Shown here piece by piece: positions 49,163-51,158 of a DNA stretch of 64,000 nucleotides. The stretch comes from Acidimicrobiales bacterium (GTDB lineage: Bacteria > Actinomycetota > Acidimicrobiia > Acidimicrobiales > Aldehydirespiratoraceae): assembly GCA_040219515.1 (NCBI GenBank), contig JAVJSI010000004.1:124001-188000 (forward strand), written 5' to 3'. Below the pieces are notes generated by a model. That model was not told the origin of the DNA. It was given only the letters and a program-made list of their open reading frames with translations, and did not search any database. Numbering within the stretch: the first letter of the stretch is position 1; every line of letters begins with the position of its first letter. The translations under genes and the position numbers were made by a program.

Positions 49163-49621
49163 TCAGGCGGTCTCGTCCGAAGCCTGGGACTTCAGCTGCA
49201 CGAAGACCATGCGGAGCTGATCGAGTGCCTCGACCAGTGTTGCCTCGGCCTCGCCGAGACGCCCTTGGAGCTTCTCGACGATGGCGGCGAGGCCGTCGAT
49301 GGCGACGGTTGCCTCGCTGAAGTTCGGGGTTTCCTGCGACAGGTGCAGGGCGGCCAGTTCGTAGAGCCCCATGCCGTGGTTGGCCACGATCATCGCGGCC
49401 GGGGTCTCGAGCAGTCGACCCCGTGCCTCGGTCATCTCTCGCACCATCTCCTCGGCACGAGTCCGTTCCTCGGGGCTGAGATCGTCGAGCTTCACTCCCT
49501 CGGGGAGCGCGGCCGCGATCTCGTCGTCGAGGCTGTGGTCGACGGCGGGCGCCTCGGCCTGTGGGGCGGGAGAAGGGCGATCAACGGGGTGTTCGCCCCC
49601 AGGTGTCCAGAGAGAACTCAT
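49163..49621 (-). CDS. DUF1844-type protein
   Basis: The 152-residue product has a variable Pro-rich N-terminus and a conserved helical C-terminal half: MGLYELAALHLSQ, VAIDGLAAIVEKLQGRLGEA and LDQLRMVFVQLKS, the DUF1844 pattern. Function unknown; often next to infC in actinobacteria. The ATG is preferred over a GTG 21 nt upstream because a TAGGGT -10 box ends 7 nt before it. Divergent from infC. Confidence 0.8.
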   Translation of the reverse strand: MSSLWTPGGEHPVDRPSPAPQAEAPAVDHSLDDEIAAALPEGVKLDDLSPEERTRAEEMVREMTEARGRLLETPAAMIVANHGMGLYELAALHLSQETPNFSEATVAIDGLAAIVEKLQGRLGEAEATLVEALDQLRMVFVQLKSQASDETA

Positions 49622-49627
49622 GGCTGG

Positions 49628-49634
49628 TACCCTA
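49628..49634. promoter_or_regulatory. Overlapping head-to-head -10 boxes for the DUF1844 gene and infC leader
   Basis: TACCCTA reads TACCCT on the plus strand (49628-49633) and TAGGGT on the minus strand (49634-49629). The minus box gives a leaderless DUF1844 mRNA. The plus box would start the long infC leader near 49641. Confidence 0.55.
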
Positions 49635-49640
49635 ACGGTC

Positions 49641-49883
49641 ACAATTGAATGGCAAGCGGGGCAACCCCCACCTGGCCATCCGGTTCGTGCTCACTCCGGT
49701 GGATGCGGGTCGCTGATGCGTCCAGGTCGACCACACGGCAGAATCCTCCGGATTCTTTCGCGGACGTCGGCTCGCCGACGTCCGTTGTTTCGTTTTCGCC
49801 GGGTACATGGTTTCCCGGAGATACGGCTCGACGGAGACCCAGCCAACCTACGGAGGTTCCGTGCTCACAAGGATTTCAGAGCG
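49641..49883 (+). promoter_or_regulatory. Structured infC leader (candidate attenuator)
   Basis: A 240-nt stretch without a convincing long gene. In order it contains a bulged stem around 49676-49704 (CATCCGG with CCGGTGGATG), a 6-bp hairpin GAATCC/GGATTC (49741-49755), a terminator-like hairpin, a CCGGG/CCCGG stem (about 49798-49818) and a GGAGG ribosome site (49852-49856). The operon encodes IF3, L35 and L20. In Firmicutes an L20-binding leader attenuates this operon; whether this one binds L20 is unknown. Confidence 0.6.
49761..49797 (+). terminator. Intrinsic terminator/attenuator in the infC leader
   Basis: An 11-bp perfect stem CGGACGTCGGC/GCCGACGTCCG with a 2-base centre is followed by TTGTTTCGTTTTC (9 T of 13), exceptional in this GC-rich sequence. 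The upstream gene runs away on the other strand, so the hairpin can act only on the infC transcript. Confidence 0.7.
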
Positions 49884-49887
49884 ATAG
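49861..49887 (+). CDS. Candidate 8-residue leader peptide overlapping the infC start
   Basis: GTG with a strong GGAGG 4 nt upstream opens a frame of eight codons (MLTRISER) that stops at TAG 49885-49887. That stop overlaps the ATA of infC (ATAG), like the ATGA couplings elsewhere in the window. An ATG at 49807 in the same frame would give 26 residues. Expression is not shown by the sequence. Confidence 0.4.
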   Translation: MLTRISER

Positions 49888-50489
49888 CACCGCAAAACGA
49901 CGAGCCAAGGATCAATGATCGGATCCGCGCCCGAGAGGTCCGTTTGATCGGACACGACGGCGAACAGATCGGCGTCAAGACGCTGCCCGAAGCGCAGAAC
50001 ATCGCGCGAGCGTCCGGCCTCGACCTGGTGGAGGTCGCCCCCGAGGCGAAGCCGCCGGTCTGCAAGGTCATGGACTACAGCAAGTTCAAGTACGAGGCGA
50101 ACCAACGGGCGAAAGAGTCCAAGAAGAAGTCCTCGAACCTGTCGGTCAAGGAGATGAAGTACCGGCCCAAGATCGGTCCGGGAGACTTCGACACCAAGAC
50201 TCGCAAGGTCGAGGAGTTCCTCGGAGAAGGTCACAAGGTCAAGGTCACGATCATGTTCCGTGGCCGAGAGATGCAACACCCCGAACTGGGTCGCAAGATC
50301 CTCGATCGGGTCGCCGAGACGGTCGAACACGTCGGCAAGGTGGAGTTCCACCCCCGACAGGACGGCCGCAACATGGTGATGGTGCTCGCTCCCGACAAGC
50401 AGGCCCAGGCCCGCCACCAGAAGCAGAAAGAAAAGGAAGAGGCCGAAGCGGCAGCCGCCGAAGCCTCGGAGTCCAACTCCGAATCCTGA
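49884..50489 (+). CDS. infC: Translation initiation factor IF-3, apparent AUA start
   Basis: IF3 discriminates against wrong start codons. From the ATA it is 201 residues: PRINDRIRAREVRLIGHDGE begins the N-domain, DLVEVAPEAKPPVCKVMDYS the linker region, and KVKVTIMFRGREMQHPELG the C-domain, with an Ala/Glu-rich tail. No ATG, GTG or TTG exists in frame between 49848 and the conserved RINDRIR. The ATA at 49884 is preceded by AAGGA with 10-nt spacing and gives a normal N-terminus. Non-AUG starts (AUU in E. coli) let IF3 repress its own synthesis. An upstream frameshift or sequence error is the alternative. Confidence 0.88.
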   Translation: MAPQNDEPRINDRIRAREVRLIGHDGEQIGVKTLPEAQNIARASGLDLVEVAPEAKPPVCKVMDYSKFKYEANQRAKESKKKSSNLSVKEMKYRPKIGPGDFDTKTRKVEEFLGEGHKVKVTIMFRGREMQHPELGRKILDRVAETVEHVGKVEFHPRQDGRNMVMVLAPDKQAQARHQKQKEKEEAEAAAAEASESNSES

Positions 50490-50502: not shown

Positions 50503-50694
50503 ATGCCAAAGATGAAGACCCACAAGGGCGCGGCCGCGCGGTTCAAGCGCACCGGCTCCGGCAAGCTCAAGCGCCGGCACCAGGGCAAGAACCACATGAT
50601 GGAGGGCAAGAGCCCGAAGCGTGTGCGTCAGCTCCGCAAGACGACCCTCGTTTCGAAGGCCGACGAGAAGAACCTGCGCGACCTCGGCGTCTGA
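50503..50694 (+). CDS. rpmI: 50S ribosomal protein L35
   Basis: Basic 63-residue ribosomal protein. MPKMKTHKGAAARFKRTGSG and KLKRRHQGKNHMM are the family signatures. It follows infC by 13 nt with a purine-rich GAGAAAGAAG ribosome site. Standard infC-rpmI-rplT order. Confidence 0.96.
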   Translation: MPKMKTHKGAAARFKRTGSGKLKRRHQGKNHMMEGKSPKRVRQLRKTTLVSKADEKNLRDLGV

Positions 50695-50724
50695 GCCGGT
50701 CCGTACCCCATTCACCGAGTGCCA

Positions 50725-50770
50725 GGAGTCGAATCGACTCCCGGCGAGAAGTCCGCACGCCGACGGCGTG
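50725..50770 (+). promoter_or_regulatory. Two hairpins between rpmI and rplT
   Basis: In the 101-nt gap, GGAGTCG/CGACTCC (50725-50741, loop AAT) and CACGCC/GGCGTG (50756-50770, loop GAC) form consecutive stems before the AAAGGGAG ribosome site of rplT. L20 represses this operon by binding RNA in other bacteria, so a regulatory site is possible but unproven. No T-run follows. Confidence 0.4.
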
Positions 50771-50795
50771 AGGCGAAATAGAGAAAGGGAGACTC

Positions 50796-51158
50796 ATGGC
50801 ACGCGTCAAGCGGTCTGTTCACTCCAAGAAGCGCCGCCGGGTAGTACTCGAGCGGGCGAAGGGCCACTACGGCAACCGCTCACGGACGTTCAAGTCCGCC
50901 AACGAATCGGTCATGCACGCGGGCAACTACGCGTTCCGCGATCGTCGGGCCCGCAAGGGTGAGTTCCGCAAGCTGTGGATCCAGCGCATCAACGCCGCGT
51001 GCCGTGAGAACGGCACCAGCTACAGCCGGTTCATCGCCGGGCTGAAGGCGGCCGAGATCGAGGTCGACCGCAAGATGCTGTCCGAGATGGCCATCCACGA
51101 CCCGGCCGCGTTCAGCGCTCTCGTCGAGGCGGCCAACGGGGCGCTCACCGACGCCTGA
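50796..51158 (+). CDS. rplT: 50S ribosomal protein L20
   Basis: Early assembly protein of the large subunit, 120 residues. [20 protein letters not shown] and [20 protein letters not shown] mark the basic N-terminal extension, and [20 protein letters not shown] the globular domain. The stop shares one base with the next methyltransferase gene (TGATG). Confidence 0.97.

Follow-up and report, generated by a model that had tools for sequence, protein, structure and literature searches.

A probable L20-type attenuator in the leader of infC-rpmI-rplT in Acidimicrobiia

We propose that the leader of the infC-rpmI-rplT operon in an uncultured Acidimicrobiales bacterium is homologous to, though diverged from, the L20 leader of Bacillus and functions as an autogenous transcription attenuator of the operon, a reading that we consider likely from comparative sequence analysis. 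Two covarying hairpins (P1 and P2) and a covarying terminator stand before the operon and are linked to the L20_leader family of Rfam (RF00558). L20 would be the ligand of the P1-P2 element, and the direction of control is presumed to be that of B. subtilis, from which it is taken by analogy. L20-type attenuation of this operon had been raised by an earlier sequence-only reading; the covarying stem and upstream helices, together with a chain of covariance models that leads to L20_leader, speak in its favor.

Gene context and conserved RNA of the infC leader

The window is the whole stretch of 64,000 nucleotides that was analyzed. Its relevant features are as follows:

49163-49621, minus strand: DUF1844 gene (Pfam), upstream neighbor, divergent from infC
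49604-49633, plus strand: putative promoter, TGTCCA (49604-49609), 18 nt, TACCCT (49628-49633)
49640-49883, plus strand: leader of infC (sequence, alignment of relatives; presumed transcript start)
49654-49656, plus strand: AAG motif preceding P1, a candidate for the AA dimer of the L20 site; AAG in 52/53 leaders
49658-49668, plus strand: hairpin P1, GGGG (49658-49661) with CCCC (49665-49668) (covariation counts)
49670-49727, plus strand: hairpin P2, ACCUGG (49670-49675) with CCAGGU (49722-49727)
49677-49680 with 49715-49718, plus strand: inner helix of P2, CAUC with GAUG, C49719 bulged
49725-49731, plus strand: GGUCGAC, candidate antiterminator that overlaps the 3' strand of P2 (partition folding without the terminator 3' arm)
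49740-49756, plus strand: variable hairpin AGAATCC-TCC-GGATTCT (sequence, fold), where the B. subtilis leader has helix H3
49760-49785, plus strand: terminator stem-loop (terminator scan, conservation, covariation, folding)
49786-49797, plus strand: U-rich tail TGTTTCGTTTTC (sequence)
49852-49856, plus strand: GGAGG, ribosome site of the short upstream ORF, conserved in the family
49861-49887, plus strand: short upstream ORF of 8 codons, GTG start, MLTRISER, stop TAG
49884-50489, plus strand: infC (IF3), AUA start (Pfam IF3_N and IF3_C, tblastn of relatives)
50503-50694, plus strand: rpmI (L35) (Pfam)
50796-51158, plus strand: rplT (L20), presumed regulator (Pfam; operon order)

The gene order infC-rpmI-rplT was found in all 57 named loci of relatives examined. 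In tblastn the infC of relatives aligns from ATA 49884 onward, which is most likely the infC start; GTG 49861 was rejected as the start since it is out of frame and opens the 8-codon ORF instead. The leader is thus about 244 nt long if transcription begins near 49640, slightly more than the 240 nt given by the sequence-only reading. The same reading had placed a promoter upstream of the hairpin: a block conserved in the family, TGTCCA-N18-TACCCT, is a putative promoter there and overlaps the start of the divergent DUF1844 gene, while a sigma-70 scan of the infC upstream region returned no promoter. As had been noted, the upstream gene is divergent (minus strand), and the complement of the hairpin lacks a U-run; for both reasons the signal points at infC. 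The rpmI-rplT spacer of the window (50695-50795) carries two inverted repeats, GGAGTCGAATCGACTCC and CACGCCGACGGCGTG.

The terminator reads GCGGACGTCGG-CTCG-CCGACGTCCGT at 49760-49785, followed by the U-rich tail. A hairpin is indeed present where a perfect stem of 11 bp had been described, but its stem consists of 10 Watson-Crick pairs and an outer G·U pair closed by a CUCG loop, and eleven perfect pairs would require a loop of 2 nt. The segment 49760-49797 is the sole terminator-like site in 49500-50000 on both strands; shuffles of this region yield 0.4 such sites on average, so the presence of a terminator alone is weak evidence. The folding energy of the hairpin is -21.1 kcal/mol (z -3.4), a value equalled by one of 200 shuffles. 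The stem was tested separately from P1 and P2 on a MAFFT alignment of 32 leaders, in which 99.1% of cells are paired, 23 cells are doubly changed, and none of 500 shuffles scores as high in covariation. Lack of conservation of the stem in close relatives had been named as one finding that would overturn the earlier reading; the stem is kept and covaries across Acidimicrobiia, and this class-wide conservation with compensatory changes exceeds chance. By a loose rule (stem of at least 7 pairs and at least 4 T in the 10-base window after it) a terminator is found in 45 of 53 leaders and is absent in 8; 377 of 1060 shuffled spacers satisfy the same rule, but seldom attain scores as high as those observed. 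In several members outside the order the terminator stem is GC-rich and the U-run weak. Two loci (L129 and L157) show a compressed form of the leader, in which only some 10-20 bases separate a U-run terminator hairpin from the infC ribosome site that follows it.

When infC upstream regions of the same family and of named genomes were compared, we observed a fixed order of conserved RNA: the AAG motif, hairpin P1, the abutting irregular hairpin P2, and the terminator at the end. Most genera of the family share a promoter-like block, AAG, P1 (G-run/C-run), and P2 (ACCUGG...CCAGGU), followed by GGUCGAC or GGUCGGC, the variable hairpin, and the terminator. Among 19 family leaders, 97.7% of P1/P2 cells are paired, and the value falls to 27-55% when the partners are slid by one to three columns. 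A covariance model built from these 19 leaders (R1) matched 43 of 97 loci at E < 0.05, and the inspected matches lie at the expected place before infC. The matching loci, family members included together with one from Coriobacteriia, were aligned as 53 leaders, in which both sides have changed in 8 of 11 P2 pairs. The observed P1/P2 covariation score is not reached by any of 500 shuffles; as this alignment was fitted to the R1 structure its counts lean towards R1, whereas the 19-leader test is free of such bias. Covariation is stronger in P1 and P2 than in the terminator stem. The single-sequence fold of the whole leader is only modestly better than shuffles (z -1.7), and the lowest-energy single fold of the window sequence lacks P2, being 1.6 kcal/mol better than the fold with P2.

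Two genera depart from the common pattern. Genus g10 (L117, L118, L122, L123, and L124) retains P1, P2, and the stem, with compensatory changes (UGGAUGUCG/CGGUAUCCA). It has lost the U-run, and its stem directly adjoins the ribosome site; regulation in this genus may have shifted from the transcriptional to the translational level. In genus g2 of the same family (L007, L011, L013, L023, and L040-L043), whose named members include sponge-derived genomes by isolate names, P1 and P2 are lost and a strong GC-rich hairpin, GCCCCGGCCGCGGCCGGGGC, stands in their place before a conserved ribosome site.

Distribution and relation to the L20_leader family

A second covariance model (R2), built from the 53 aligned leaders, matches the window at 49646-49732 with 58.2 bits, its single match in this genome. 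Across Acidimicrobiia the P1/P2 element is found upstream of infC by covariance model, with R2 matching 51 of 60 genomes sampled from the class (E-value no higher than 0.1), some of which are also named loci. R2 was further run on 296 genomes of the phylum: infC is present at the locus in 23 of its best 30 matches; the remaining seven, six of them outside the class, have no infC nearby and were taken as noise. The predicted element is therefore present before infC in most sampled Acidimicrobiia, in a form missed by Rfam.

Rfam finds nothing relevant in the window at the gathering cut-off or at E 10, and RF00558 gives no match there. As it does not reach the gathering cut-off, the window leader is to be regarded as a divergent variant that stands outside the curated RF00558 family. 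Sub-threshold RF00558 matches occur at the correct place in the infC leaders of Collinsella and other actinobacteria. In the phylum, RF00558 matches 76 of the 296 genomes with E-values up to 1, a single match exceeding the cut-off, and all of the best 30 loci contain infC. A third model (R3) was built from 12 leaders of Coriobacteriia only, because a second actinobacterial group was misaligned by MAFFT in a joint alignment. Its structure is supported, with the same plan of two abutting hairpins in Coriobacteriia. R3 matches L159, which is above the Rfam cut-off (65.6 bits with RF00558), at a rough E-value of 1.9e-5, and L181, an L20_leader-type leader, at an equally rough 1.1e-5. Against 46 loci of Acidimicrobiia it gives 22 matches up to E 5, 20 of them exactly on the leader, the best at 8.4e-5 (E-values rough). 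The window's own leader is not among these matches, so its link to L20_leader passes through its relatives. In the reverse direction, R2 matches nine leaders of Coriobacteriia at the right place, mostly weakly, and its strongest match there (L105) belongs to its own training set. Neither R1 nor R2 matches the Firmicute-like actinobacterial leaders directly, and only R3 bridges the two groups. The plan held in common is AAG, a hairpin, an abutting ACC...GGU hairpin whose 3' side carries a bulged nucleotide, a spacer, and a terminator; RF00558 features present in the window are the place before infC-rpmI-rplT, two abutting covarying hairpins of which the second is irregular, and a downstream intrinsic terminator.

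The putative L20 site shows further signatures. In P2, two adjacent C-G pairs are conserved in 52/53 and 53/53 leaders, respectively. The 23S rRNA of this organism carries GGGCCCCAAGC-GCCGGCU...AGCCGGC-CCCCGAAGCUGUGGGC, which we take to be the region of helices 40-41, and the leader order (G/C)AAGC, P1, P2 resembles a circularly permuted form of this site. Two consecutive G-C pairs and an AA dimer are reportedly common to L20 leaders and the rRNA site (PMC7247131); in B. subtilis the L20 site is located where the first two helices of the leader meet (PMC6097659). The C-G pairs and AAG of the leader appear to be the same nucleotides as in these reported signatures.

Proposed mechanism, the infC start codon, and alternatives

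In B. subtilis, L20 binding favors the terminator (PMC6097659, PMC10931766). By analogy, when free L20 exceeds the available rRNA, it would bind the P1-P2 junction and keep P2 closed; the downstream arm would then be free, the terminator would form, and transcription would stop near 49797, before infC-rpmI-rplT. When L20 is scarce, GGUCGAC 3' of P2 would instead engage the terminator's 5' arm and allow read-through. When the terminator 3' arm is omitted from folding, the 5' arm pairs with the segment immediately downstream of P2 in some 27 of 34 leaders. Pairing of GGUCGAC (49725-49731) with GUCGGCU (49766-49772) would break two invariant C-G pairs of P2, and mutual exclusion of P2 and terminator-arm pairing is a good candidate for the switch in the window. 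Although its partner varies, the GUCG within the 5' arm does not change among the aligned terminators, as expected if GUCG has a second partner. The post-P2 segment is the preferred partner of the terminator arm within the family only, and a class-wide antiterminator of this kind was not supported, as the preference does not hold outside the family. A leader-peptide attenuator was rejected, since the conserved short ORF (49861-49887) lies after the terminator.

The TAG stop of this ORF overlaps the AUA start of infC as AUAG. All 45 placed family members have the 8-codon ORF with a strong ribosome site and the AUAG overlap, and in the order an ORF of 5-8 codons is present in 41 of 44 named members, the other three having an in-frame UAA one codon earlier. 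The start of the ORF varies (GTG/TTG/ATG) and several lengths occur, always in the same frame. The AUAG arrangement is conserved in many families of the order and missing from others, where infC mostly begins with AUC; a compact short ORF was found in about 35 of 60 sampled genomes, and 16 of the 60 genomes lack AUAG at the infC start, most of these with AUC there. Conservation of the short ORF may be due in part to infC's own ribosome site, located within it. The simplest reading is translational coupling, in which ribosomes would re-initiate at a rare start codon that IF3 disfavors. The conserved overlap suggests a second, IF3-linked layer of control. It is tentatively suggested that two autogenous circuits are stacked on one leader, L20 acting on transcription via the attenuator and IF3 on translation via AUA re-initiation, a combination that we hold possible but doubtful; as IF3 disfavors AUA and acts on post-termination ribosomes, the AUAG overlap would in that case sense free IF3 directly. 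No report of an infC start overlapping the stop of a conserved short ORF was found in the literature searched.

The same RNA might attenuate in response to a signal other than L20, e.g., IF3, L35, or a small molecule. The position of infC as first gene and its AUA start, which suggests that the IF3 level is controlled too, would fit such a signal, but the regulator in B. subtilis is L20 (PMC6097659), and the L20_leader link and the near-invariant L20-site signatures favor L20; we consider another ligand unlikely. It is also conceivable, with a low probability in our estimate, that P1-P2 is an L20 site whose control is exerted mainly on translation or RNA stability and not on termination. Genus g10, which retains P1, P2, and the stem next to the ribosome site with no U-run, is in keeping with it, as are the weak U-runs of several members outside the order and the 8/53 leaders lacking a terminator by rule; against this, the stem and U-rich tail are present in 45/53 leaders, and those of the window lie at least 90 nt before the infC start.

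That the leader has no regulatory role at all, the hairpin being a chance product of GC-rich sequence or a constitutive terminator or processing site that trims expression, is in our view highly improbable. The region is GC-rich and the whole-leader fold stands only at z -1.7 against shuffles, yet the helices upstream of the terminator covary class-wide and keep a fixed place before infC; a chance origin is rejected because of this covariation. Attenuation by L20 is the reading we favor.

Comparison with known L20 and IF3 systems

The Bacillus-type L20 leader has been described as confined to Firmicutes (PMC6097659), to which Thermotogales were added (PMC3766115), and L20 leaders have been listed in Gammaproteobacteria, Firmicutes, and one candidate of Deltaproteobacteria (PMC7247131). 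In M. tuberculosis a long and abundant infC leader was noted and compared with L20 control (PMC3207917). With respect to the open-access literature searched, actinobacterial L20-type leaders appear to be new; earlier notice of them, for instance in subscription papers or in Rfam's species list, is possible. The self-regulating L20 ribosome circuit probably also works in a large part of Actinobacteria. With an L20-type leader now placed before infC in several actinobacterial lineages and in most sampled Acidimicrobiia, the L20 leader would be either older than thought or transferred. The element offers a concrete, testable control for a ribosome operon that is essential, in a large class whose members are mostly uncultured, with a hint of a second layer through IF3.

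The window leader shares with the L20 leader of B. subtilis the place before infC-rpmI-rplT, the succession of AAG, hairpin, abutting hairpin, spacer, and intrinsic terminator, and the conserved C-C/G-G pairs and 3'-side bulge of the second hairpin. It differs in that its sequence is too distant for recognition by Rfam, P1 is a G-run/C-run in place of GAAGC/GCUUC, P2 is longer with a different inner part, the terminator is GC-rich with a short interrupted U-run, and an overlapping short ORF precedes infC. The infC leaders of Coriobacteriia and other actinobacteria are intermediate forms (GAAGCGGGG...CCCCACCU...GGUC with a bulged A and a strong terminator); unlike the window, the Coriobacteriia-type leaders have the inner P2 helix as in RF00558, strong U-runs, and no overlapping short ORF.

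The L20 operator of E. coli (rpmI-rplT) exerts autogenous control by mimicry of 23S rRNA (PMC10931766), and the proposed system resembles it in both respects. In E. coli, however, the sites through which L20 acts on the translation of rpmI-rplT lie downstream of where infC starts, and L20 does not control infC; an operator of that type was rejected for the window, whose element stands before infC. IF3 autoregulation via a rare infC start codon is known from E. coli (AUU) and S. aureus (AUA) (PMC13009471). The window has a non-canonical infC start in common with both, and differs from them in that this start overlaps the stop of a conserved ORF of 5-8 codons with its own ribosome site.
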